This document shows positions 37,157 through 50,913 of a stretch of DNA of 64,000 nucleotides, piece after piece (position 1 is the stretch's first letter; each line of letters starts with the position of its first letter). The notes under the pieces were generated by a model that worked only from the letters and a program-made list of their open reading frames with translations, did not search any database and was not told the DNA's origin. Origin of the DNA: Herminiimonas sp. CN (GTDB lineage Bacteria > Pseudomonadota > Gammaproteobacteria > Burkholderiales > Burkholderiaceae_D). The stretch is from assembly GCF_000622895.1 (NCBI RefSeq), contig NZ_AVCC01000004.1, positions 1-64,000 on the forward strand, written 5' to 3'. The translations under genes and the position numbers were made by a program.

Positions 37157-40100
37157 TCACTTCACGTTCACCTCTTTCATCCTTTCGTTGAATTCCTGCA
37201 TTTTTCTGGTGATTGCGTCGTTACTCTCCTTGATCTGGTCGCGCGATGCGTTTTCTGCCTCCAGTTGCTTGCGCTGGTTGCGCAGTAACTTGATTTGATT
37301 TTCGACCGCTTTCCCGTAGCCAATCATGCTCACATCAGGATTATTGTCGATATATTCCTGGATCGGCTGGCGATCCTCCAACCGGCCTTTGATCTCCTTA
37401 TCATGCTCGTGCAGCTTCGTTGTATTGGCGTAGAACTTGTTGCTTGCTGAAAAGGCATTCTCTGAATCCCCATAGAAGCGACTGACCAGCGGGATTTTAT
37501 GTGGCGGCAAGTCGTCGCCAGTTGCAATCGCCGTCACGGACTGGGCGGCCTTGTTCAATTCGCGGCCGACACCGCCAGTCACCTGCCCGAATAAATAGTC
37601 AATCTGGTCGGGCGTCGGACTGGCTTTACCGGCCACATATTCAGTGCCGCCGGAGAGATAGTTGATCGCCTCCGCAATCATCTTGGCAGGCGCGCTGGCC
37701 GTACTCTTAATGCGGGTATAGCCTGGCTCAAGTTTGTCAAAGGTCGGCTTAGAGATCGATTTCCCGGTCCAGTCCTTGTCGACGGCCAGGGCAACAAATG
37801 GTGCGGCCGGGGTTGGCGTGAAGCCTTGCACCGAAATCCCGCCGCCGCCGATCGGGTTGAATGCCTCCGTAATGACGCCCAGCAACCGAAGGACGTGATC
37901 AGTTGGCTTCTTGTAGCCGCCCAGCGCAAACTCGGCAGCAATACGGCCGATATTCGGAATCGCGTGATAGCCCAGCGGCATCGGGATGGTGACGTATTTC
38001 TTGCTCCCGATAGGAATAATTATGTTGCGCTCCCGAATGAACTCAGGCGGCTCGTCATCATCGAATCCGGCCAGTGACAGCATTACCGCCTGCATCGCTC
38101 CCCATGCAATGCCGCCGACGATGATCTTCTTGCCGGCGGACGTCAGGCGCGCGGTCTTGATATTTCCTCCATCCATCGTAAACAATGTTTGCGACAACCG
38201 CGCCGTTCCCTGCACCGCGGCATTGAAGAACATGTAAAGCGCGCCGATCTGCTGTGCCGATTGGCCTTTTCTGTTGAAATTGACCGTGATATTTTTGGCA
38301 ATGCTGGCGGCGCGCTGCTTGCTTATACCTTGTTCGCGCGCCATCTTGTAGACTGACAGCCGGGTCGCGTTTTCCATCGACTCGTTATAGTCGGATAGCA
38401 AATCGAGCATCACCTTGCCGCCGCCCTGCAATTTCGCCATCGGCACTTTCAGAGCGCCGTTTGCAGTAAACATCTTGCCGGCGGTGCTTTCCATCCAGGC
38501 GGTCGGGTCCATTGCGGACTTGATCGCATCGGCGCGGTCGGCGCTGTTGGCGTACATATCGCGAAATCCCGTTGCGCCGCCCTCTGCCCGATATTCCTCC
38601 CACAGCCTGCCCATGTCAGAATCAATCGTCTTGCCTTTGCGATCAGCGCGGGTCGAGCGGCCAATTGCCACCAGTGCCGGGCCAATATTCTTCATCAACT
38701 TCAGGCGCTGGCCCGCTAAAGGCGTGCTAGACAGATTGAGCGTAGATTCGCCAATATCGCGCACCAGGTTGGTCGCGCCGAATACCGGGTTATATTGGGT
38801 GTTGATCGCAGCAAAGTAGCGGGTAATCTTCGCGGATACGCCCAGCAAGCCATTCAGCTGCGCCGTGTCCAGATTTTTCATGGACTTGGCCATGCGTAAA
38901 GCGCGCTCGTTCCGTTCGTTGAATACGATCGCACGCTCCTGAATTTCCCCTTTGGAATCCTTGATCTTTGCCACGACAACATTGTCTGCGCTCTTCCAGT
39001 TGCCATTGATGCTCATCTCAACGAGCCCAGTGGCTTCGTTGTAGCGCCGCTCCGGAACGGGCGCAAAGGTCCAGAAATCCGGGCTCGGATTCAGTTTGAC
39101 CAAGCCGGCCAAGGCCACCGCCACGCGGTTCTTCTCGCCGCGCACAATCACCTTCTCCCGCTGCAGGGCGATGTTGGCCAGAATATTCACCACCGAGCGG
39201 GTCGATCCAGTGCGGTGCTTGACTTCCTTGCCCTTGATCGAGAATCCCTGTCCGATCCCCATGCCGGCGCCATCGTCTTCACGCATCAACGGTACGTAGT
39301 GCTTGAACATGTCGCCCCACTCCTTGACGGTACCGGCCGACTCCAGGCCGTAGGATGCGTACAGGCGCCGGGTTTCCGCCAAGATCGCGTCCACCTTCTC
39401 CGCCACGGCGGTCAGATGCCGGCGCTTGGAATCGGTCAGGCCGGCAAAATAGGCATCTGCATCCTTGTTTGTCATGCCGGAGCCGCCGTCCGGGATCTCG
39501 GGATTGCGCTCGGCGATCAGCGCATTGGCTTCTTTAGCATGGCGCGCATGCAGGTATTGGTCGATCTCATCCAGCGATAGCTGACGGGCAACAGCGTTTT
39601 TCAGCAGCGGCGTCAACTCTTTGTTGACGAACGCCTCGACGCGCGACGACGAGCGGCTATGAAACAGTTCTTCCTGCAGATAGGGGTCGTAGCTGTCGGC
39701 GATCTGACCGGATTCCTTGGTGATCGCCTGCACCGCGCGCCGCAGGTCGATGTGCTTGTCCTGCAACTTGTAGATGATGTTGTCGAGCCGGGTGTTTTCC
39801 GGCGCATCCCATGAAGCCCGGCTGCCGGCCTTGGCGCCTTCCAGTGGAAGGGATTGTTGCTTGGGAGTGATAATGGGCGCGGAGCGGTCGCCCAGCGCGC
39901 CGTCAGCGGTTAGGTCGCCGGTTCGGCTATAGAGGATTCCCTTAAGTTCGCCAGAGCCTTGATCCACGGTGGACACATGGTTGCGCAGCTGCCGGCTAAG
40001 ATGTGCCAAGACTCCGAGGGGCTGCCGTCCGGATTGTCCGGCGCGTAATGGCTGTAGCAATGACTTGAGGAGAGCGTGTCGCGCAAGTGTATCGCCACCT

Positions 40101-43100
40101 GCATTTCCTGCTCTACCCAGCCCAGCTTTTGCCAATCCGCGTATATCTTTGCGCGTAAGGCGCGTTCCGTCGGCGCCAGTGAAACGTCCAGTGGATGCAT
40201 CGTATTGAATTCCTCCATTTCCGCCTTGATTGTCAAGATTTTGGAGATTAACGTCAATCAATTTTTGGATATTGCCAAGGTGGTCGCCATATACCCAATC
40301 GAGCGGCGCAATGCCGGCGCTACGCTTGCCGCTGACTTGGTGCGGATGCGGTGCCAGGTGTTCCGTGGTCCCGAACTTCAGTGCCGACGATAGCATTTGC
40401 TCCGGTCGCCGGCGCAATGCCTCGTCCGTAATCCCGGCCGGGTCGCCTATGAACACCTTGCCGGTGTTGTGGGCATAGTTCGCCGCGATGTTGTACAGGG
40501 CTGCGCCGAAGCTGCCGCCCTCGCTCAGGAGTGACACGTCAATCCAGACATCGTCCTTGCCGTGCGCCTCTTCCGCATTTTTTCCGGGGCGATCGCTTTC
40601 GCGGTTCACCATCTCGCCGTCATTCAAGTTGAAGCCGTACAGGCTGCTGCCGTATTTATTGAACGGCCGCACCATCATGCGCGCCATCGTATCGTCCGGC
40701 AAATCGAATTGATAGCGCGTCTCGCCGGGAATGTTGGTGATCTTGCGCACCTTGATATCGGGCCGGATATCGTGCGTAATGCCTTCCACGGTGGTGCTGG
40801 GCGATGCCTTGAATTGGAATGCGTCACCAATTGAGGCAATGCTGCGCAAAATATCATCGTCCAGTGTGCCATCGGCGCGCGAGAACTGCGCCTCTTCTTC
40901 GTTGGCTTGGCCGCCCCTGTTCTGAACGTGTTCTGCCCACGTCTGCACCATGATCGCGCGCACCGCCGCCACATCCGACACCAATGCATGCAGATCGAAG
41001 TTGGTCCCGGCCAAGCTATCCACGATTCGAGTTGCTACCTGCATGAAACGATAGGCAACTTGCCGAAACAGATTGGCGTCGGCCTTCGCCAGATCGCCCC
41101 AAAACTGCGGGTCCATCCACATCGCACCGTTGATATCGGCCAGCACTTCGCTTTCAGCCGTCCGGACTGACACGTCCTGGCCGCCACTACGGGCCTGCTC
41201 CCAGTCGCTGCGATTAGCGACCGTATCTTTCAGCAGATACTGATTAATTTGCTGGCGCAACCGCTCTCCCATTGCTGGATCGCTCTGCTCCATCGCGTGC
41301 AGCGTTTCATGGCCGGCAATCGCCAGCGCCGGACTGCGCAAGCTACTCGAAATGTAGGCGGTGCCTTTGTAGCTGACGCCTTCGAACGTTGTGTTGCCGG
41401 TGACGAAATGCACATCGATGCCGAATGCCTTGCCAATTCGCTTGGCTAGGGCATGTTCGGCGGTCGGCGCCGTCTTCAGCGCCTGCACCGGCTCCACGCC
41501 TGATTTTTCGAGCGCGACGTTCAGCTTTGCCACTGCCTTCCTTGATTTGGCCAACTCATGCTCATTCAGCTTTGGCGACGACTGCTGGCCAACCCGCTCC
41601 GGAACGGAAGGAGTTTCTGGCAGAGTTTCGCGGAAATAGGCGGCATCGGCTAACGGCGAATTCAGGCCGAATACTTTATTTTTTGCGCCAATCGCCCCGG
41701 CAGCAACCAGCGCGTCGCGGATTTGCGTCGGCGTCGCGTCGGGCGCAACGGTTACGTCCTCGCCGGTTTCAAAGTTTTGCGCCGGGTATTTGCCGATGTG
41801 CACCACGCCGTCTTTGACCATAACCGGCTCGGCAGATGTTGGCGTGCGGCCAACGGATATCCCTTTACGCGCGGCATCTACCCGGGATGCCTTGGCTTCC
41901 CCCTCGGTTTTTGGCTTGGATTTTTGTGTGGCATTGACTCCATCCGAATCCAATGCCTTCGGAGTATTCGTCGCCGGCTGGCTAAAAATATCCCCCTGCC
42001 CTGCAAGGCTATCGTCGGCACTCTGCCCCAACTGGAAATTATCCGAGCTGGCATCTTGGCGTGATGCTATTTCCTTCTGGATTCCGGCCTGCCGCTCGGC
42101 TTCGGCAAGCTTGCGCTCATTGGCCTGGGTGTCGGCCCGCTGCTTTTCCTGTGCGACTACTTGGGCGCGGCCTTCGGCTGCAGTTTCTCCTTGGAGTTTG
42201 GTTGGCTGCTCGGCCTGCTTCTCCGTCTTGGGAACCGCCACCGGCTGTTCAGGGTCGGCAGCGGGCGCCGCGCGCTCAACTGGCCCGGCGCGCAGCTCAC
42301 GTTCGCCCGGAATGGTACGATGCATGCGCGGCCCTTCGCCAGTCGGCACCCACTGGCCGTCTTCCTGCTTGACGTGCTCGACCGTGACGCTGAACCCTTC
42401 ACCTTGGCCGTTGCTTGGCGTGTACGAGATAACGCGATCGTGACCGTAATAGCCCTTCACCACGTTGCCCGGCGTGAAGTAGTCGGCCATCTGGCGCGCG
42501 TGTTCTTTCTGGCGGGCTTTGCCGGTCAGCTTCGGTGCGGGGTATTGCGCCTTCGCTTGGCGCTCGGTCGTTGGTTTCGCAAACGGCTTTTTCGTGTTAC
42601 CCGATTTCAGCCAGTCCTTGAATCCCTGCATAGACGTTTCCGTGATGGCCTTGCCTCCGGTCCAGCCCTTATCATAATTAGCCTGGTATGCGGCCTGCGC
42701 CTGCTCCTTGCCATCAAAGCCGAGCATGACTTTATGTTCATCTGGCTTGCCAGTGACTGGATCAACCTGATCCACCACGAACACCTTGTCGCTATCGTGA
42801 TTGGTGCCGATGAAGGTGTCGATGTGGTCTTTGTCCATCCCGACGGTACCCTTGATGTAGCCGTAGTGGTGGCGCATCTCGGTTTCCCATACCAAGCCGT
42901 CTTTGCCGGTACCGCTACGCGTGGAACCGGCTGGGTTTTCAATGGAAATGTCCAGTCCATGAAGGTTGATTTTTCCAACCTTATAGTTACCAGCCTCTTT
43001 TTGTTTATCTGTTGGCTGAGCCGCATCATTCAAGGGAGACGTAGCCGCTTCATGCGCAGCGACATCAAGCGCGGTTGGCGTGTCGATGACGGGCGCCGAT

Positions 43101-45352
43101 TCTGTCTGAATGGTCTTAGCTGCCTCCCGCCGCGCCTTCGCTTCCTTCTCAGTCTTTGGCTTGGCCTCAATCTTTGCCTGCGCTGCGGCAAGTTGATCTG
43201 CAACCTCCTTAGCCGCCGCGCCGTGCGCCGCATTCAATTCTTGCCGGACTGCAGTCAGATTGTGCTCGGCAGCCTGCGCCGCCACCTCGTCACCAGATAT
43301 AGCCGCGTCCTTGTAGTTGGCGATGGCTTGGGCGTGCTGTCCTGTCAGATCAGCGTGGGTCGCGCTTGCTGGCACCGCTTGCTGATTTTGTGCGAGTGCA
43401 TTGGCGGCCTGCTTCCTGCTTTGGATCGATTCTTTTTCAGTCCGAGGCGGAACGATGGGAGCTTCCGTCGCCAGTGCCGGCGGCATGGTCGCCTCATCGT
43501 CCAGCAGGTGTGCAGCATCGATCGCATCGCTTTCTGCCTGCGCAACTGGCGCTGGCGAAACAATCAGCGCTTCCGTTTGCGTCGGCGCTTCCACGCTTGC
43601 AGCCTCTACCTGTTCAGCAGCTGGCGCGATATCCGGCGTTGGCGCAATCTGTTGTGCCTCGACTGGATCGTCGGCAAACGTCGACTCAGCGCGCTCCCCG
43701 AGCTGGGGCGCATGACTCTCATGCTGCCCACCCCCCAACCCCGCCCCCATGGCGGCTCCCGTAACCAGCCCCATCGCAGCGGCGTTACCCACGCCTTTTC
43801 CTGCGGGGTCGCCCATCGCCAGATTCGTAAAAACCTGCTCTTGCGCCGACTGCGGCATTTCTTCCAGAACACCTTCGCTGAATGCGGATTTTGCAATGCG
43901 CGCCGGCAAATTGCCTGTGATGCCGCCGGCGCCACTCCCGCCCGCTAGCCGCGCGGCAATCGCTGTTTCCGCATCGCCCATCAGCTTCCCGGCCCCACGT
44001 CCGATCAGCGCAGTGCCAGTGCCAGCGGCAACCGCGGGCAATGCATAATCAGAATAGCCGCGCCCCGCTTGCTGCGCCTGGTCGGCGATCTGTCCAGCGG
44101 TTTGCGCACCCTCGGCACCAGAGCCCGTCCACATCAGCTTACCGGTGGCTTGCTCGATGGCCTTCTTTGCCGCCACTGAACCGGCCTGCTTCCCGGCCTC
44201 GGTCGCCAAGCCGCCCAGCGGCTCTGCTGCCGCAAGCGCCGCCTTCGCGCCGATCGCTTTGGCAACTCCCATGGTGACGGCCGTTCCGCCGATCATGCCC
44301 GGCAGCGATTTGGCAACGCCCCCGGCAATCGCGCGCGGATTCTGGACCGCCGCCAGAATCGTATCGACAAAGCCTTCCGCGTTCTGCGTCTTGGCATCAG
44401 ACGCCTTCTGCGCATCACTCAGGTATTCTCCCAGTGCCGCATTGGTCGCTTCCGGATCATAGCCAATGGCGCGCATGCCTTTGCCGACTGCGCCGCCCGT
44501 CGCCAGGCTGCCCAGGCCGACCACCGACTGGCCGAGATCAACCACGCCCTGGGCGAGCTTGATACCGATATCGCCCGCCGTGCGCAGCGCACCCGCTTGT
44601 GGCGGCTCTTTTTTCTTGGATGGCGCCATGAACTGTTCGAACAGCGCATCGCGCTCGCCGCCAACGTGCGGCGCAACCCAGTGGTCAAAGTACGCTTTCT
44701 TGGTGTAGGCCTTGTCCTCGTCGCTCAGGCGCTGGAATTCAGGCTTGGCTTCAACCTCAGTCCACATCGGAGCCTTACTTGGATCGGCAACCGCGACCGC
44801 CTTCGCAGGCTCCGCAGCCTGCGCCGCAGTTGATCCCGAGAGTCGCCCCAGGATATCGTTGACATAGGACGATACGCGCTTGCCGTTGCCGTCGGCGGCG
44901 TCATTGCGCCATGCCCTGCCTTTCCCAACGGTCATGTTTCCGGCCCCGGAGAAATAACCGGTCGCCATCCTGGCCGGGTCGTCGCCCGACTTGGTACCCA
45001 AGTCCTTGACGATGCGCGCCATCACGGCCAGGTTGTGGTCAGGGTTATCGATCGTCTCTCCGGGCCTGGCGTATTGCTTGAACGTGCCCGGCATTACCTG
45101 CCCTGCGCCGCGCGCGCCGTCTATGCTGGTTACTGCGTTCTTGCCATTGTTCGACTCTTGGCCCAGCAATGCACCCATGACCTGGCGCTGTACCGGCGAC
45201 AAACCCTCGCGCTGGGCTATTCCATCTATGGCAGAGACATCAATGGCGGTGGTGGTTTTTGATGTCGCCGCCGGTTTTTCCTGAAACAAAAAACTGGAAT
45301 TGCCCGGCTGGTCTTGGATGTCGCGGAGAAGGCTGCCGAAGTTCGAATCCAT
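37157..45352 (-). CDS. Giant polyvalent ejection protein with N-terminal lytic transglycosylase (T7 gp16-like role)
   Basis: 2731 residues, the last late gene. About 40-170: soluble lytic transglycosylase/goose-lysozyme-like domain (GALLGQESNNG, catalytic Glu66; GARGAGQVMPGTFKQYA). About 194-248: segment duplicated in the lipoprotein at 47702. About 255-560: Gly/Ala-rich hydrophobic stretches. 787-920: domain resembling the phage polyvalent-protein pyrophosphatase-like module (YGYIKGTVGMDKDHIDTFIG). About 1345-1355: zincin-type HETLH. About 1490-1700 and 1850-2731: large polyvalent-protein-associated (LPD, LPD38-like) regions, with a hydrophobic helix near 2411-2434. Expected in the virion, ejected to cut peptidoglycan and protect DNA. 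GAGG precedes the ATG by 9 bases. Confidence 0.85.
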   Translation of the reverse strand: MDSNFGSLLRDIQDQPGNSSFLFQEKPAATSKTTTAIDVSAIDGIAQREGLSPVQRQVMGALLGQESNNGKNAVTSIDGARGAGQVMPGTFKQYARPGETIDNPDHNLAVMARIVKDLGTKSGDDPARMATGYFSGAGNMTVGKGRAWRNDAADGNGKRVSSYVNDILGRLSGSTAAQAAEPAKAVAVADPSKAPMWTEVEAKPEFQRLSDEDKAYTKKAYFDHWVAPHVGGERDALFEQFMAPSKKKEPPQAGALRTAGDIGIKLAQGVVDLGQSVVGLGSLATGGAVGKGMRAIGYDPEATNAALGEYLSDAQKASDAKTQNAEGFVDTILAAVQNPRAIAGGVAKSLPGMIGGTAVTMGVAKAIGAKAALAAAEPLGGLATEAGKQAGSVAAKKAIEQATGKLMWTGSGAEGAQTAGQIADQAQQAGRGYSDYALPAVAAGTGTALIGRGAGKLMGDAETAIAARLAGGSGAGGITGNLPARIAKSAFSEGVLEEMPQSAQEQVFTNLAMGDPAGKGVGNAAAMGLVTGAAMGAGLGGGQHESHAPQLGERAESTFADDPVEAQQIAPTPDIAPAAEQVEAASVEAPTQTEALIVSPAPVAQAESDAIDAAHLLDDEATMPPALATEAPIVPPRTEKESIQSRKQAANALAQNQQAVPASATHADLTGQHAQAIANYKDAAISGDEVAAQAAEHNLTAVRQELNAAHGAAAKEVADQLAAAQAKIEAKPKTEKEAKARREAAKTIQTESAPVIDTPTALDVAAHEAATSPLNDAAQPTDKQKEAGNYKVGKINLHGLDISIENPAGSTRSGTGKDGLVWETEMRHHYGYIKGTVGMDKDHIDTFIGTNHDSDKVFVVDQVDPVTGKPDEHKVMLGFDGKEQAQAAYQANYDKGWTGGKAITETSMQGFKDWLKSGNTKKPFAKPTTERQAKAQYPAPKLTGKARQKEHARQMADYFTPGNVVKGYYGHDRVISYTPSNGQGEGFSVTVEHVKQEDGQWVPTGEGPRMHRTIPGERELRAGPVERAAPAADPEQPVAVPKTEKQAEQPTKLQGETAAEGRAQVVAQEKQRADTQANERKLAEAERQAGIQKEIASRQDASSDNFQLGQSADDSLAGQGDIFSQPATNTPKALDSDGVNATQKSKPKTEGEAKASRVDAARKGISVGRTPTSAEPVMVKDGVVHIGKYPAQNFETGEDVTVAPDATPTQIRDALVAAGAIGAKNKVFGLNSPLADAAYFRETLPETPSVPERVGQQSSPKLNEHELAKSRKAVAKLNVALEKSGVEPVQALKTAPTAEHALAKRIGKAFGIDVHFVTGNTTFEGVSYKGTAYISSSLRSPALAIAGHETLHAMEQSDPAMGERLRQQINQYLLKDTVANRSDWEQARSGGQDVSVRTAESEVLADINGAMWMDPQFWGDLAKADANLFRQVAYRFMQVATRIVDSLAGTNFDLHALVSDVAAVRAIMVQTWAEHVQNRGGQANEEEAQFSRADGTLDDDILRSIASIGDAFQFKASPSTTVEGITHDIRPDIKVRKITNIPGETRYQFDLPDDTMARMMVRPFNKYGSSLYGFNLNDGEMVNRESDRPGKNAEEAHGKDDVWIDVSLLSEGGSFGAALYNIAANYAHNTGKVFIGDPAGITDEALRRRPEQMLSSALKFGTTEHLAPHPHQVSGKRSAGIAPLDWVYGDHLGNIQKLIDVNLQNLDNQGGNGGIQYDASTGRFTGADGTRLTRKDIRGLAKAGLGRAGNAGGDTLARHALLKSLLQPLRAGQSGRQPLGVLAHLSRQLRNHVSTVDQGSGELKGILYSRTGDLTADGALGDRSAPIITPKQQSLPLEGAKAGSRASWDAPENTRLDNIIYKLQDKHIDLRRAVQAITKESGQIADSYDPYLQEELFHSRSSSRVEAFVNKELTPLLKNAVARQLSLDEIDQYLHARHAKEANALIAERNPEIPDGGSGMTNKDADAYFAGLTDSKRRHLTAVAEKVDAILAETRRLYASYGLESAGTVKEWGDMFKHYVPLMREDDGAGMGIGQGFSIKGKEVKHRTGSTRSVVNILANIALQREKVIVRGEKNRVAVALAGLVKLNPSPDFWTFAPVPERRYNEATGLVEMSINGNWKSADNVVVAKIKDSKGEIQERAIVFNERNERALRMAKSMKNLDTAQLNGLLGVSAKITRYFAAINTQYNPVFGATNLVRDIGESTLNLSSTPLAGQRLKLMKNIGPALVAIGRSTRADRKGKTIDSDMGRLWEEYRAEGGATGFRDMYANSADRADAIKSAMDPTAWMESTAGKMFTANGALKVPMAKLQGGGKVMLDLLSDYNESMENATRLSVYKMAREQGISKQRAASIAKNITVNFNRKGQSAQQIGALYMFFNAAVQGTARLSQTLFTMDGGNIKTARLTSAGKKIIVGGIAWGAMQAVMLSLAGFDDDEPPEFIRERNIIIPIGSKKYVTIPMPLGYHAIPNIGRIAAEFALGGYKKPTDHVLRLLGVITEAFNPIGGGGISVQGFTPTPAAPFVALAVDKDWTGKSISKPTFDKLEPGYTRIKSTASAPAKMIAEAINYLSGGTEYVAGKASPTPDQIDYLFGQVTGGVGRELNKAAQSVTAIATGDDLPPHKIPLVSRFYGDSENAFSASNKFYANTTKLHEHDKEIKGRLEDRQPIQEYIDNNPDVSMIGYGKAVENQIKLLRNQRKQLEAENASRDQIKESNDAITRKMQEFNERMKEVNVK
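44609..44773 (-). repeat. 165-bp inverted repeat, arm 1 (inside the giant gene)
   Basis: Codons about 194-248 of the giant protein (APMWTEVEAKPEFQ ... FEQFMAPSKKK). On the minus strand it matches 47930-48094 of the plus strand at 160 of 165 bases by my reading; the five differences are single substitutions. The match stops sharply at both ends. Confidence 0.92.
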
Positions 45353-45477: not shown

Positions 45478-46200
45478 TTACATCCGATCGCCGCACACCA
45501 TCTCCGATAGCCGCGCCATGCCTTTTGCTGTAATACGCGCTTGCGTACTGGCCCACTCTGACCCGTCGCTTTTCTCGCCAGTCGCTATTTTGTGCTCCAT
45601 TACGCCCTGTTGCAGCCTTTCAGAATACGCCAGCAGGCCAGTGCCCATCGGTCGCTGATATGCCCATTTGCTCTGAATAAGAATTTGCTTGAGCTTCTTC
45701 TCCTGAACTTGAAGTGTCTTTGCGGCATCCCGAATGCACAGCGATCCATCGGTTGCCGTGGCGATCCGGTCAAGTGCTTCCACCTTTGGCGCTTGCTCCG
45801 CAACTTTTGATTCCAGCGTCAGAACCTTTTCCGTGTAGGTCAGCAGCAAGCCGCGCATTGCTACTGGATCGGAAAGCACTTGCATTGGGTCAATAGCGGG
45901 AACCTTCGCCTCCAATTCCGCCATGCGGTCGTAGACCTTGGCCTGGACTGCGTAGGACTCGGACATCACCATCAGCGAGGCCTCGCGCTTTGGCAGGCGG
46001 TAGCAAGGGTAAGTCTGGCCGTTTTGCTGGTTCTGGTAGGTGTCGGAAAATTTTCCGGCACCATCACCAAGCACTTTTGCGACCTTCTTCATGAAGTCGG
46101 AATGGGCTAACTCTGCCTTGTCCTCTTCTCGTAACTCGTTAATGACGCCGACCAATTCTACGCTGCTCATTGTTTTGACGATATTTACGATAGCATTCAT
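45478..46200 (-). CDS. Phage antirepressor, Rha-type N terminus with KilAC/ANT C terminus
   Basis: 240 residues. The N-terminal half contains FSDTYQNQQNGQTYPCYRLPKREASLMVMSESYAVQAKVYDRMAELE, the hallmark of Rha/antirepressor family proteins (shown here by LPKREASLMVMSES and VYDRMAELE). The C-terminal half (about 130-235, ALDRIATATDGSLCIRDAAKTLQVQEKKL, ITAKGMARLSEM) is a KilAC/ANT DNA-binding domain (PF03374). Such proteins counter phage repressors. It overlaps its upstream gene by four bases (ATGA), with a terminator after it. Confidence 0.85.
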   Translation of the reverse strand: MNAIVNIVKTMSSVELVGVINELREEDKAELAHSDFMKKVAKVLGDGAGKFSDTYQNQQNGQTYPCYRLPKREASLMVMSESYAVQAKVYDRMAELEAKVPAIDPMQVLSDPVAMRGLLLTYTEKVLTLESKVAEQAPKVEALDRIATATDGSLCIRDAAKTLQVQEKKLKQILIQSKWAYQRPMGTGLLAYSERLQQGVMEHKIATGEKSDGSEWASTQARITAKGMARLSEMVCGDRM

Positions 46201-46787
46201 GCTGCCACCTCCGAATCAAGAGACGCCATGTACGCAGCCTCGTCGAAATTGAGCCCTGCATTGGCTTTTCGCACCAGGTCTTGCTCCGTCAGGCGATCAA
46301 GATTGCCGCCCAAGTGTTTTGCGGATGCGGTCAGCCAATCCGCAATCGTGTTGAAAAACCCAGTGTACTGACCGCGAAAGCCGCTAAAGCCGTCGCTCCA
46401 TTCGCTCATGCGGCCCATATTCTTCATAGCCAAGCCGCCCTCCTGCTCAAAGCGCACCATGAACGATTCAATAATTCCCGTAAGGTGATGCGAAGCAAAT
46501 TCGCCCTTGTCTTCGCGCAGGAACTTCAGGAATGACTGCGCCATCGCCGCGCCAGTCTCATAGCCGCCGAAGTAACCGCCCGAGGCTGAAACGCTCCAGT
46601 ATGGCGTTTCAGTGACCGAACGTGACCCTGCTACAAATGGAAGGTTTTGGAATGCATGCTTAACTCGCCTCTTCTTTTGCAACCTCACAGGATCACTCAT
46701 GCGGGATATGCAAGGGAAATTTATGGCAAATGACTTCTTGGTCGCCATTCCTGATCCTACGTTTTCTGTATTTGTGCTAGCATTCAT
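46197..46787 (-). CDS. Phage protein of unknown function, coupled to the antirepressor
   Basis: 196 residues; not recognised. Visible: a basic N-terminal part (LQKKRRVKHAFQNLPF), an aromatic/glycine stretch (YWSVSASGGYFGGYETG), and helical segments with SFLKFLREDKGEFASHH and GFFNTIADWLTASAKHLGG. No membrane segment or cysteine pairs. ATG 46785-46787 was chosen because AGAGG lies 8 bases upstream; a longer form from 46820 lacks it. Its stop overlaps the antirepressor start, so the two are translationally coupled and probably act together. Confidence 0.65.
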   Translation of the reverse strand: MNASTNTENVGSGMATKKSFAINFPCISRMSDPVRLQKKRRVKHAFQNLPFVAGSRSVTETPYWSVSASGGYFGGYETGAAMAQSFLKFLREDKGEFASHHLTGIIESFMVRFEQEGGLAMKNMGRMSEWSDGFSGFRGQYTGFFNTIADWLTASAKHLGGNLDRLTEQDLVRKANAGLNFDEAAYMASLDSEVAA

Positions 46788-46820
46788 TTTGTTAGACCTC
46801 TTTTGTGATTGTTCTGACAT

Positions 46821-46861: not shown

Positions 46862-47044
46862 TTAGTGCGCTGCATTTTGTTTTCCAATTCCTTGTTCGAT
46901 CAAGTGCACAAACTCAGAATTCATCGAACGATGGTTTTTTGTAGCTGCCTCCTTGACTTTTCCTCGTAATCCATCTGGCAGTCTCACAACAAAACTTTCC
47001 TTCATTTCACTTGGATAGCGAGCCCGCTCTAATTTCTCATTCAC
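46862..47044 (-). CDS. Arc-type ribbon-helix-helix repressor (leftward)
   Basis: 60 residues of the Arc/MetJ RHH fold (PF03869-type): YPSEMKESFVVRLPDGLRGKVKEAATKNHRSMNSEFVHLIEQGI, where ESFVVRLPD is the DNA-contacting beta strand. The start appears to be GTG (47042-47044) with GAGG about 8 bases upstream. A near-perfect promoter precedes it. Divergent from a second Arc-like gene at 47162; the pair brackets shared operators. Likely maintains lysogeny or times early genes (inference). Confidence 0.85.
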   Translation of the reverse strand: MNEKLERARYPSEMKESFVVRLPDGLRGKVKEAATKNHRSMNSEFVHLIEQGIGKQNAAH

Positions 47045-47064: not shown

Positions 47065-47151
47065 TGATGCCAACTCGGCATGACCAAAATATATTCCGAG
47101 TTAGCATCAATGTCAAGTAGGAAGTATTAAATATATTCCGAGTTGGCACTA
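47065..47151. promoter_or_regulatory. Three operator half-sites between the two Arc-type genes
   Basis: CCGAGTTRGCATCA-type sites at 47065-47078 (inverted), 47096-47109 and 47138-47151 (direct). The first two form an inverted repeat with arms of about 18 bp. The second and third share AAATATATTCCGAGTT and lie 42 bp apart, about four helical turns. The middle site sits between the -35 and -10 of the leftward promoter. Good candidates for RHH-repressor binding. Confidence 0.75.
47088..47116 (-). promoter_or_regulatory. Strong sigma-70 promoter of the leftward Arc-type gene
   Basis: On the minus strand TTGACA (47111-47116, exact consensus), 17-bp spacer, TATATT (47088-47093). The predicted start lies near 47081, giving a leader of about 37 nt. 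An operator half-site fills the spacer, so binding there would block polymerase. Confidence 0.8.
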
Positions 47152-47161
47152 TCATGTTGGT

Positions 47162-47590
47162 ATGTCTCATAAACCATACCCCAGCGAAACCCAAGATCGC
47201 TTCATCGTCCGCTTCCCAGACGGCATGCGTGACCGCATCGCCGAGGAGGCGAAGGCTAACGGACGCAGCATGAACGCTGAAATTGTCCAGAGATTAGAAA
47301 TGACTCTGGGCATGACAACCCGCCCCAATGTGCCAAACATATCCGGCGACATCCCCTTCTACATGGCGCAAGACATTGCGATGCTTGCCGAAGATACCGG
47401 GGTATCATTTCGGGAAATGCTTTCTCGCATCTTTATCGCCGGCATACATAAAGACGCCCCTCAAGTGCTTTATGTATCGATCACTCCCGGCGTTACAGCA
47501 GAAGAAGTGCGGAAAGCCTTAGAGGCAACGAGAGACATAGCGCGACCTGATGCAGCACTTGTGTTTGAGCCACTAGCTAAAAAGCCCTAA
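47162..47590 (+). CDS. Arc-type DNA-binding protein with C-terminal extension (rightward)
   Basis: 142 residues. About 1-55 is an Arc-like RHH domain (SETQDRFIVRFPDGMRDRIAEEAKANGRSMNAEIVQRLE) closely resembling the product of the divergent gene. The rest (FYMAQDIAMLAEDTGVSFREMLSRIFIAG, then a beta-rich LYVSITPGVTAEEVRKALEAT) is not recognised and may be a dimerisation or effector domain. No ribosome-binding site precedes the ATG. With its neighbour it forms the probable genetic switch, in place of a CI/Cro pair. Confidence 0.8.
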   Translation: MSHKPYPSETQDRFIVRFPDGMRDRIAEEAKANGRSMNAEIVQRLEMTLGMTTRPNVPNISGDIPFYMAQDIAMLAEDTGVSFREMLSRIFIAGIHKDAPQVLYVSITPGVTAEEVRKALEATRDIARPDAALVFEPLAKKP

Positions 47591-47701
47591 CCCTCCAATA
47601 ATTATTTAATGCTATTTAGCAGCTAAAACTAACATTTCCCTTTGTCAATATATAATCAAAACCATAATCAACGAAACGCCTGATTCTGACAAAGAGCGAA
47701 G

Positions 47702-48097
47702 ATGAAAATCATATTAATCGCATTCATGCTATTGCTTGCTGGCTGCACCCGCTACCCAACTAGTGACTTCGAATGCCGCATCGAAGCGTCCAAGGCGCCC
47801 ACGGGTTACGGAGTATCTGCAACCAACAAAGCTTGCGACGAAAAGTTTAAGGATGAAATTGCCGCACGTAAATTAGCTAGCGATATTGTCGTGAGAGAAA
47901 AACTTGATGAAATTATCTCCACGGCACAAGCTCCGACGTGGGCTGAGGTTGAAGCCAAGCCTGAATTTCAGCGCCTGAACGACGAGGACAAGGCCTACAC
48001 CAAGAAAGCGTACTTTGACCACTGGGTTGCGCCGCACGTTGGCGGCGAGCGCGATGCGCTGTTCGAACAGTTCATGGCGCCAGCCAAGAAAAAATGA
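47702..48097 (+). CDS. Chimeric prophage lipoprotein carrying a copy of an ejection-protein segment
   Basis: 131 residues. Signal peptide with lipobox LLAGC (Cys15; Thr at +2, so no inner-membrane retention signal), a helical spacer (about 20-76, two Cys) and a C-terminal 55 residues almost identical to residues 194-248 of the giant ejection protein. It would sit in the periplasm, lipid-anchored. Upstream 47591-47701 is AT-rich with promoter-like TTGTCA-N15-CATAAT (47642-47668). Function not known; phage lipoproteins often block superinfection, and a decoy for incoming ejection proteins is proposed in the findings. Confidence 0.75.
   Translation: MKIILIAFMLLLAGCTRYPTSDFECRIEASKAPTGYGVSATNKACDEKFKDEIAARKLASDIVVREKLDEIISTAQAPTWAEVEAKPEFQRLNDEDKAYTKKAYFDHWVAPHVGGERDALFEQFMAPAKKK
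47930..48094 (+). repeat. 165-bp inverted repeat, arm 2 (3' end of the lipoprotein gene)
   Basis: Matches the complement of 44609-44773 with five substitutions, in the same reading frame. The stop codon of the lipoprotein begins one base after the end of the match. Confidence 0.92.
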
Positions 48098-48218: not shown

Positions 48219-48524
48219 ATGAACGTTATCCAACGTACCGAAGAATTCAGTTCCTGGCTCGCGGCCCTCAAAGACGTGAAGGCCAGAGCCAGAATCATCG
48301 CCCGAATTCGGCAGGCGAGCCTCGGCAACTTTGGCGACGTGAAGCCCCTTGACGAAGGCGTTTGGGAAATGCGGATCGACTCCGGCCCCGGCTATCGTGT
48401 TTATTACGCCCGCGAAGATCGCGTGGTCTACCTTCTGCTGAATGGCGGCGACAAATCCACGCAACGCCAAGACATCAAGCGCGCAATTTCCATGTGGAAC
48501 ACAATCCAAGAGGAACAGCCATGA
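48219..48524 (+). CDS. RelE/HigB-type toxin (Gp49-like, PF05973)
   Basis: 101 residues. IQRTEEFSSWLAALKDVKARARIIARIRQASLGNFGDVKPLDEGVWEMRIDSGPGYRVYYARE is the phage-derived Gp49-like/HigB fold, probably a ribosome-dependent mRNA endonuclease, with GVWEMRIDSGPGYRVYY as the core signature. Toxin first and antitoxin second is the higBA order. The stop overlaps the antitoxin ATG by four bases. No ribosome-binding site is seen upstream. Confidence 0.85.
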   Translation: MNVIQRTEEFSSWLAALKDVKARARIIARIRQASLGNFGDVKPLDEGVWEMRIDSGPGYRVYYAREDRVVYLLLNGGDKSTQRQDIKRAISMWNTIQEEQP

Positions 48525-48814
48525 CTACCATTAGAATCGCTCCTTTCGATGCCGCCGAATACCTCGACAGCGAAGAAATGATCGCGGAGTACCTGTCTGC
48601 GGCCTTGGAAGAAGATGACCCCTCACTTTTCCTTGCTGCTCTCGCCGATGTTGTTAAGGCACGCGGCATGGCAAAAGTAGCCCAAGATGCAGGGCTTGGT
48701 CGCGAGAGCCTATACAAAGCGCTCGCCCCGGGTGCCAAGCCGCGCTATGACACCGTGATGAAACTGGTGCATGCGCTTGGCGTGAAATTTACTACCGCGC
48801 CAGTTGGCGCCTAG
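48521..48814 (+). CDS. HigA-type antitoxin (HTH, addiction module antidote)
   Basis: 97 residues. FDAAEYLDSEEMIAEYLSAALEEDDPSLFLAALADVVKARGMAKVAQDAGLGRESLYKAL is the standard start of this antidote family, with a Cro/CI-type HTH (about 45-92, MAKVAQDAGLGRESLYKAL, VMKLVHALGVKF). It should neutralise the toxin and repress the promoter. The stop lies 8 bp from the convergent stop of the 468-residue ejection protein. Confidence 0.88.
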   Translation: MTTIRIAPFDAAEYLDSEEMIAEYLSAALEEDDPSLFLAALADVVKARGMAKVAQDAGLGRESLYKALAPGAKPRYDTVMKLVHALGVKFTTAPVGA

Positions 48815-48822
48815 CGCAGTTT

Positions 48823-50229
48823 TCAAAGTAGGCCGAGACTGCGCTTAGCCTTCGCGGCAGCCTCTATCCCCGCTTGGTTGCGCTCCGCAGTGGCGCGGGC
48901 AATGCCCTCTCGCTTTTGCTGCTCCAGCAGCGCCCTGACCCCGGGCGACCATTGCATGCGTTTTCCGTCGCCCATCTCGGCAAGCTCACGCTGGTATTGC
49001 GCCTGCGTTGCCAGCGCTATCCGGGCGGCTTCCGGCAGGTTCCCTTGCGTTGGCGCTGACACTGCCTGGGGCTTTGGCGTATTCAGTCCTGGCGCGACGG
49101 GCTTCGGTGTTGGCGCTGCTGCCGGCGCTGGTGCTGGGGCGGGTGCTGGGCGGGGCGGCACCGCAACCGGCTGCGGCGCAGGCTGTACACCACCTGCACC
49201 AATGATCTGACGTGCTCGCTCGGCCTTGGCTTCGTCGACTGGTACAACTGACGTTGCTCCAGAGTGCATTGCGTCGAACTGCTTCTCGAAAATCGTTCGG
49301 GCGCTGATGATATCTTTTTCTGTGGCGCCGCTCGAAAGAGAAGTCTTCATCATCTCGCCAACCCAATCCGTCTTGCTTTTATCACGCGAGGATCGCACCA
49401 TGCCCCATGCAGCAGCTTCATCCTTTGCTACGCCCGAAGATAAAAGCCACTTAGCCGTCGTGACCTCGCCCGGATCGCCTTTACCGCCAGCCATATTCGG
49501 ATCGCCTTGCTTGACAATATCGATCTTCCCGGTCTCCTGATTAATCGAGCCGATTGTGCCGTCTCGCGTATGGATGGCGGAGTACTTGCCGGTCTTTAAG
49601 CTACTCTCAGCCTGCTCGTAGGCCGTCGCCGGAATAGTGAGCCGGGATCCATCATCGGCAATAATGTCATATCCGCGCTGGACAACGCCATCGACCGCTC
49701 CGCTAGTGGGCTCGATACCGATGTATTTCTTGGCTTGGGTCCCGGCCTGTAGCGCCTCCGCATCGGCTACGGAGTTTACATGCGTGAGCAAGGCTTGCTT
49801 ATCATTTGATTTGACTAGCCGGCCGAATGTTGCCAGCGCTTTCACCCTGCGGGTAGCTGCGTCCTCTGAGTTGGCTGCCACGCGCCCCTTCTCCTGCTCT
49901 GGGATGTCCGCCACGCCGCGATCCAATTTGGCGGAATCGATTTGCTGTTGCTTCGGCTGCTGCTGCAGCTTAAAATCAATGCCGCCCCGATCCAACTCCT
50001 GCTGGCGCATAGTGTTGGCGGTCTGCCCCGGCAGCGTTTCCTGGGCGGCGCGCGCCAATGCGGCGGCCTGCCTGAACTGCTCCCTTTGTGCGGCAGTGTG
50101 ATCATCCAGGGTTGATAGCCCCGCCGCCCGGGTTTGCTTGTCGTACGCGCGCTCGTCTTCCAGCGCCCGCTCTTTATTGCCTTCTTCGATGCCCTTCCAA
50201 GCACCGTACAACCCTGCGCCAAAGCCCAT
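48823..50229 (-). CDS. Internal virion (ejection) protein, second of three
   Basis: 468 residues, not matched to a named domain. The N terminus MGFGAGLYGAWKGIEEGNKERALEDERAYDKQ is a helix typical of phage ejection proteins; the middle is soluble and mixed, and about 345-410 is a Pro/Ala linker (QPAPQPVAVPPRPAPAPAPAP-like), followed by a helical C terminus. Position between a gp14-like and a gp16-like gene suggests the T7 gp15 role in the trans-envelope channel. GGGA precedes the ATG by 6 bases. The rightward island ends 8 bp beyond its stop. Confidence 0.65.
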   Translation of the reverse strand: MGFGAGLYGAWKGIEEGNKERALEDERAYDKQTRAAGLSTLDDHTAAQREQFRQAAALARAAQETLPGQTANTMRQQELDRGGIDFKLQQQPKQQQIDSAKLDRGVADIPEQEKGRVAANSEDAATRRVKALATFGRLVKSNDKQALLTHVNSVADAEALQAGTQAKKYIGIEPTSGAVDGVVQRGYDIIADDGSRLTIPATAYEQAESSLKTGKYSAIHTRDGTIGSINQETGKIDIVKQGDPNMAGGKGDPGEVTTAKWLLSSGVAKDEAAAWGMVRSSRDKSKTDWVGEMMKTSLSSGATEKDIISARTIFEKQFDAMHSGATSVVPVDEAKAERARQIIGAGGVQPAPQPVAVPPRPAPAPAPAPAAAPTPKPVAPGLNTPKPQAVSAPTQGNLPEAARIALATQAQYQRELAEMGDGKRMQWSPGVRALLEQQKREGIARATAERNQAGIEAAAKAKRSLGLL

Positions 50230-50244
50230 AGCAATCCCTTTGAA

Positions 50245-50913
50245 TTAAGACACGTCATCGCCAAATGTCGGTTCCGCCGCATAACGCTGCGGCTTGGTGT
50301 AATCGCTCAGGCCTGGCGAATTATTCCAGGCCTTTATGCCGGCATCAATCGTCTTCGCATAACCTGCGGACTCCCGACTTTGCTGCTCCATCCCGTTCTG
50401 CGCCATCCTGGCATTGGTACTCGCCACGCTACTGAGCCCGGCTGACGCATTTGCAGCCAGTCCCTTGCCAAGACTGAGTGCATCCGTTTTGTGGGCCCAT
50501 GCCATATCGCTGACCCGGTTGCGCGCCGCATTCTGGCCGACCGCATCAGATGCAGCTTGGCTCATGTCTAGGCCAGCCATGCTGCTGGCATAGGATGCGC
50601 TTGATGGATCAAGACCGGGGGTACGGCTCAGCCGATCGCGTGCTTTGCCGTACTGCTCGGAGTTGGTGGCCGATGCGAGCCCCGCGGCGCGCGCGTAGGC
50701 TTCCGGTGTATCGTAGTTCTGAGCCTCAGCGACATAGGCTTTTTCCAGTGGCTGGTACGTTTCTTTGTACGTGTTCCACTGGTCTCTGGCGATGGCGGCT
50801 TGCTGCTTGGTCGCGTCGGCAGCAGCGCCGTTTGCGTCTTCCGCGCCGTTGTCGTCGGCCAGCATGCTGCCGACTACTGTTGATGCTACAGCTCCGAGAA
50901 CTGACGCCACCAT
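50245..50913 (-). CDS. Internal virion (ejection) protein, first of three
   Basis: 222 residues. A hydrophobic glycine/alanine N terminus (MVASVLGAVASTVVGSMLAD) is followed by long helices with many Ala, Gln and Asn (TKQQAAIARDQWNTYKETYQPLEKAYVAEAQNYDTP). This resembles the small internal proteins (T7 gp14-like) that form the outer-membrane part of the ejection channel. It starts the ejection block, after the acetyltransferase gene. Confidence 0.6.
   Translation of the reverse strand: MVASVLGAVASTVVGSMLADDNGAEDANGAAADATKQQAAIARDQWNTYKETYQPLEKAYVAEAQNYDTPEAYARAAGLASATNSEQYGKARDRLSRTPGLDPSSASYASSMAGLDMSQAASDAVGQNAARNRVSDMAWAHKTDALSLGKGLAANASAGLSSVASTNARMAQNGMEQQSRESAGYAKTIDAGIKAWNNSPGLSDYTKPQRYAAEPTFGDDVS

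Follow-up and report, generated by a model that had tools for sequence, protein, structure and literature searches.

An open reading frame at 47702-48097 (+ strand) of the window, by which we mean the whole 64,000-nucleotide stretch of DNA analysed, encodes a 131-residue lipoprotein that was characterised by reading of the ORF, repeat analysis and AlphaFold2 prediction. The translation begins MKIILIAFMLLLAGC and continues TRYPTSDFEC..., and comprises a signal peptide with a lipobox (LAGC, Cys15), an orphan region (residues 16-76) and an ejection module (residues 77-131). The full lipobox, LLAGC, occupies residues 11-15 and is followed by Thr at position +2, as read from the sequence. Under the E. 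coli Lol rule, which is not universal, Thr at this position predicts retention in the outer membrane. A simple pattern scan identified the gene as the sole lipobox ORF of the prophage. The orphan region holds Cys25 and Cys45 and is predicted to form a long helix between residues 38 and 74. Signal peptides and topology were judged by eye throughout; on this basis, and in the AlphaFold2 model, the protein possesses a single N-terminal hydrophobic signal and its remaining helices appear soluble.

The C-terminal part of the lipoprotein is a copy of another prophage gene. An unbiased repeat search revealed an inverted repeat of 165 nt, with arms at 44609-44773 (- strand) and 47930-48094 (+ strand) that are 97% identical, differ at five positions and share a longest run without mismatch of 103 nt. 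No second comparable long repeat was found when the search was applied to 36-56 kb and to the whole window. The first arm encodes residues 194-248 of a giant ejection (internal virion) protein of 2731 aa (37157-45352, - strand), which has an SLT domain near the N terminus and, in addition to the module at 194-248, InPase-like, LPD37 and LPD38 domains. The second arm encodes residues 77-131 of the lipoprotein. At the protein level, BLASTP of the lipoprotein segment against the giant protein returned 89% identity over 57 aa (E 1.8e-35). These results reproduce what the first-pass annotation had read by eye, namely the lipobox with Thr at +2, the near-identity of the last 55 residues to residues 194-248 of the giant protein, and DNA about 97% identical over 165 bp with five substitutions; its further reading of the copy as recent is likewise supported.

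The copy comprises exactly 55 codons, in frame and with matching codon phase in the two genes. Its first residues are Ala-Pro, ahead of the module's conserved Trp, and its last are KKK, with the TGA codon of the lipoprotein gene directly next. Similarity ends abruptly at both edges and the flanks cannot be aligned. The giant gene is the likely donor, since related giant proteins have the module in the same region and the N-terminal part of the lipoprotein gene is an AT-richer orphan (45.6% GC, versus 58.2% for the module). The substitutions between the arms are T/M, A/T, a silent change at F, N/S and A/S. As four of the five change an amino acid, purifying selection is not visible in the copy, which is too young for selection to show.

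That the segment derives from an ejection protein, as had been proposed, is supported by homology to both gp16-type and giant ejection proteins. A tblastn search of 50,697 phage records placed the module at the extreme N terminus of the gp16-type DNA-transfer proteins of P22-like phages (HK620, Sf6, Brookers and CUS-3), and at least 12 contigs of related phages encode giant ejection proteins with the module in their N-terminal region. When IMG/VR was searched with a profile of the module, 290 relatives were returned; the 26 different loci read among the best 80 all encode ejection-type proteins (one cut by a contig end). In P22-like gp16 the module is positioned at residues 2-5, and in larger proteins at about residues 40-210, there usually after an SLT-type region. 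The lipoprotein carries the gp16-type pattern W-x-x-V/I ... L ... YF ... AP ... F, and residues W80, L92, Y104, F105, A110 and P111 (lipoprotein numbering) are invariant in 33 sequences. Judged by this homology, the 55-residue segment is a real module of gp16-type ejection proteins. In gp16 and the giant proteins, however, it lies within a virion protein, whereas in the lipoprotein it is exported by a signal peptide. In the AlphaFold2 prediction the module folds into a compact helical unit (pLDDT about 90) after the long helix, while the region around the lipid-bearing Cys is poorly predicted. A Foldseek search with the model matched no solved structure, and the best match was another phage giant protein (E 0.07, 57% identity).

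Residues 1-76 of the lipoprotein had no homologue in phages, plasmids, IMG/VR or 399 genomes of the order, the only match, to a LexA-like frame of genome G330 (E 0.006), being ascribed to chance. In the collections searched, the exact lipoprotein-module fusion was found in a single prophage of a single genome, by pattern-based scans of a kind that miss divergent relatives. The only other record with the fusion, IMGVR_UViG_2585427722_000008, is identical over 16.4 kb and apparently represents the same assembly; it therefore does not provide independent confirmation. The lipoprotein matched no Pfam family, and sequence comparison with PDB chains gave no significant match. A match to a TraV lipoprotein (E 0.018) lay in the signal region and was rejected, that to the Cor superinfection-exclusion lipoprotein (phrog_1119; E 0.085 over residues 2-29) reflects signal-peptide similarity only, and one to an Alteromonas 'ATPase' (E 0.5) was dismissed as chance.

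The lipoprotein gene resides in a 3.4-kb cassette that separates the gene for the gp20-like protein from the giant gene. These two are adjacent in 11 related phage contigs, with 3-74 nt between them, and the cassette is thus an insertion. The gp20-like ejection-protein candidate (468 aa; 48823-50229, - strand) was assigned by position and by an N-terminal pattern common to its relatives, with no family match; beside it lies the gene for a gp7-like protein (222 aa; 50245-50913, - strand) with PHROG 'DNA ejection' and virion structural matches. Read in the late-gene direction, the cassette contains, on the opposite strand, a HigB/antitoxin pair (48219-48814, +), the lipoprotein gene and a Mnt/Arc-type repressor gene, and then genes for a divergent Arc-type repressor, a phrog_12849 protein and a KilAC antirepressor. 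The pair, downstream of the lipoprotein gene, consists of a HigB/RelE-type toxin (48219-48524, +) and an HI1420-type antitoxin within the ORF at 48362-48814. Just upstream of the lipoprotein gene and on the same strand is the Arc/Mnt-type ribbon-helix-helix repressor (47162-47590, +; Pfam Arc 1e-15); its divergent counterpart is an Arc-like protein of 60 aa (46862-47044, -; Pfam Arc 7.8e-14). The phrog_12849 protein (207 aa; 46197-46820, -; PHROG match) is encoded between this gene and that of the antirepressor (KilAC/Ant; 45478-46200, -; domain matches), upstream of the latter.

Between the two repressor genes lies an operator-like region (47068-47148) with three CCGAGTTRGCA sites, at 47068-47078 (-), 47096-47106 (+) and 47138-47148 (+), together with promoter-like sites. 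This sequence occurs nowhere else in the 64 kb, with 0.07 occurrences expected by chance. A further promoter-like site, CTAACA-16-TATAAT (47629-47656, +), lies 45 nt before the lipoprotein ATG and was recognised by its consensus match only (10/12). The immI order in P22 is 20, 16, sieA (reverse), orf59a (reverse), mnt (reverse), arc, ant. On the basis of gene order and domain matches, the lipoprotein cassette is of the P22 immI type, with the lipoprotein gene in the sieA slot. In Proteus phage Brookers (L011 4542-5018, - strand), the sieA slot is occupied by the gene for an unrelated protein annotated as a putative lipoprotein, with an Arc-type gene next to it; it represents a candidate exclusion gene.

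P22 SieA blocks DNA injection, and mutations in gp16 and gp20 allow escape (Leavitt et al. 2024, PMC10883804). Like sieA, the lipoprotein gene lies in immI beside mnt/arc/ant, in the same slot and orientation and antisense to the late genes; both products would be envelope proteins, with gp16/gp20-type ejection proteins as the proposed target. SieA is a multi-pass inner-membrane protein, whereas the prophage protein is a lipoprotein carrying an ejection-protein copy; its single hydrophobic signal does not suggest a multi-pass protein, and it matched no family. The gp16 changes that permit escape from SieA map to the C-terminal part of that protein, outside the N-terminal module (PMC10883804). 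Additionally, SieA showed no similarity to the P22 ejection proteins and the Brookers sieA-slot lipoprotein none to those of Brookers. Mimicry is therefore not the usual design in that slot.

The first-pass annotation had cited as a precedent the lipoprotein Ltp of Streptococcus phage TP-J34. The Ltp report (PMC3952083) confirms that this prophage lipoprotein, built of a lipid anchor, a spacer and an active domain, acts on the tape measure, or injection-channel, protein at DNA injection; SieA with gp16 and gp20 adds a closer precedent. Like Ltp, our lipoprotein has a lipoprotein signal with a lipobox, but no homology to the Ltp repeat domain was seen by PDB sequence comparison or Pfam. Ltp differs further in belonging to a Gram-positive system, in its gene lying in the lysogeny module and, in the text consulted (PMC3952083), in its active domain not being described as a copy of its own phage's tape measure protein. 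SNIPE, a membrane-placed defence, likewise acts on the injection complex, and the N-terminal region of some homologues is homologous to the P22 tail needle (PMC13190303). SNIPE is a nuclease, however, whereas the lipoprotein has no recognised catalytic domain.

When the module profile was run against about 85,000 species genomes of bacteria and archaea, four loci emerged (L107, L108, L109 and L110), all in betaproteobacterial genomes and none an ejection gene. The proteins encoded, of about 335-430 aa, all consist of a signal peptide, an ejection-protein N terminus with the module and then hydrophobic, apparently transmembrane, segments. They are collinear with the ejection N terminus (QDLSKFFD... 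PDLSKAPKWRDI...), and BLASTP against the giant proteins gave, for example, 45% identity over 102 aa (E 4e-22). The membrane part of one protein differs (DUF2628), so that there are at least two kinds in all. At least two of the loci are on integrase/primase-type elements. In Gallionellaceae UBA2239 (L105 3869-about 13000), the gene for the exported mimic lies on a stretch of roughly 9 kb flanked by ychF and other host genes. This stretch also encodes a tyrosine integrase, a primase-helicase and HicA, has no recognised capsid gene and resembles a satellite-type or P4-like element. At L109, Toprim/DUF927 primase, HicA and Fic genes lie nearby. A small conserved neighbour of the exported proteins (L107 6831-7157 and L110 4511-4948) belongs to no Pfam family.

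These four proteins thus share with the lipoprotein a signal peptide and an ejection N terminus with the same module, as well as, at L107 and L109, a mobile-element setting. They differ in possessing a transmembrane rather than a lipid anchor, in that the copy is old and diverged, and in the absence of a matching ejection gene in the stretch read. Fusion of the module to an export signal has thus arisen at least twice, in mobile-element settings and with different anchors. Exported relatives were found neither on plasmids nor in a single-protein scan of IMG/VR, and a profile-based scan aimed at exported forms gave hits on five contigs, each a giant-protein locus known before.

A second exported protein is encoded by the same prophage, on the same contig and outside the window. 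P0003 (227 aa; C4 82995-83678, + strand; L126 18995-19678) carries a signal peptide, and its gene directly follows that of P0006, a CI-like S24 repressor. The mature protein opens with SFGAGLTGALEGVRQANEEEELRQDRKY, which matches the beginning of the gp20-like protein of this prophage. The Smith-Waterman score was 74, whereas the next of 516 ORFs scored 38, and none of 2000 shuffles reached it; because the match was first spotted by eye, single-comparison E-values overstate it, while the ranking against all ORFs does not. The rest of P0003 consists of two copies of a segment of the prophage's scaffold-position protein (63369-64364; 38% over 88 aa, E 3e-13). PADLOC defence models matched neither the lipoprotein (P0001), P0003 nor the exported membrane proteins.

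Superinfection exclusion is the most likely role of the lipoprotein, since SieA in the same slot blocks injection and Ltp acts on an injection-channel protein. More specifically, we propose, at about even odds of being correct, that the lipoprotein displays a module of the ejection machine in the periplasm and there poisons or out-competes incoming ejection proteins. This proposal starts from an anatomy that is plainly seen: a copy with in-frame domain boundaries, the lipobox, a module conserved in ejection proteins, a cassette arranged like immI, and analogous exported proteins. The host prophage would be short-tailed, P22-like or F116-like, and the protein would have originated by fusion of a lipoprotein signal and helical spacer to a copy of the small helical module of the prophage's own gp16-type ejection protein. 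The immI analogy and the promoter-like match suggest expression from the cassette in the lysogen. Once anchored in the envelope and facing the periplasm, the displayed module would meet the ejection proteins of an incoming related virion and the DNA conduit would fail to form, either through co-assembly (a dominant-negative effect) or through occupation of the module's normal binding site. Packaging of the prophage's own ejection proteins takes place in the cytoplasm; export would keep the lipoprotein apart from them, and the phage would not poison its own assembly.

Two sequence findings strengthen the idea, namely the four exported analogues and the presence of P0003 beside the CI repressor. 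Against it stand the restriction to one genome, the orphan N-terminal half, the position of SieA escape mutations outside the module and the predominance of non-synonymous substitutions. The superinfection reading of the first-pass annotation has accordingly fared unevenly: the sieA slot and the analogues fit exclusion, but the fusion was found in no other prophage. Absence of the fusion from all related prophages, which that annotation had named as a refutation, is thereby partly borne out, but there are analogous proteins that export the module on another kind of anchor. Searches of the open-access literature turned up no description of an exported mimic or decoy of an ejection protein.

The presence of the module at no fixed position and in widely differing ejection proteins, as would be expected of a portable binding domain, and the anchoring of exported versions both by lipid and by transmembrane segments, could instead suggest that the module binds a component of the host envelope. 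The lipoprotein would then block or occupy that component and not the incoming ejection proteins. We regard such competition for a docking site as rather unlikely. No host partner is known, and a near-exact copy of the prophage's own variant would be needless for a generic host-binding domain, though recency alone could explain the identity.

It is similarly doubtful that the fusion is an accident, in which recombination appended 165 bp of the ejection gene to an orphan lipoprotein gene, leaving a functionless module at its end. Its occurrence in a single genome, the junction between low-GC orphan and high-GC module, and the four amino acid changes are what an accident would leave. Conversely, the edges of the copy coincide with the module boundaries, in frame and without a stop or frameshift, the same type of exported fusion has arisen elsewhere, and a second exported mimic is present in the same prophage. 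Lipoproteins with unrelated functions are the products of many prophage morons, and the protein might have another envelope job, such as adhesion or signalling, with the module as a passive helical tail; the sieA-slot position and the identity of the tail make this improbable. Finally, the inverted, near-identical arms, which share the same codon phase in both genes so that both inversion products would be open, might allow the 3.2-kb stretch between them to flip and swap the N termini in frame into a lipoprotein-tethered giant protein and a truncated 248-aa transglycosylase protein, but we consider such a switch highly improbable, as the cassette contains no recognised recombinase gene, the assembly is in one orientation and inversion would break the ejection protein.

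Returning to exclusion by a displayed ejection module, a broader pattern may be suggested, tentatively and at somewhat below even odds: prophages and small integrative elements might time and again derive exclusion proteins from exported parts of phage ejection proteins, which would be self-derived, separated by compartment and dominant-negative against incoming relatives. One prophage would here have used the strategy twice, once in the lipoprotein with its gp16-type module and once in the signal-peptide protein beside CI, which has a gp20-type N terminus. If so, exclusion genes could be sought by a simple rule, namely a signal peptide joined to part of the neighbouring ejection protein. The blocker would be the resident phage's own injection machine, kept harmless to itself by compartment, and would offer a small tool with which to dissect the poorly known envelope assembly of gp16-type proteins. 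The strategy would also reach small integrative elements, which may shield their host from phages.

Right after P0003 (L139 1776-2592, equivalent to C4 83675-84491, + strand) lie the genes for two further proteins, each with an apparent signal peptide: a small protein (HSGGTDANGCHVNHKTGERHCH) and an SNase-domain nuclease (Pfam SNase 4e-23). A nuclease exported next to an ejection mimic, from within the immunity region, could attack DNA as it enters.
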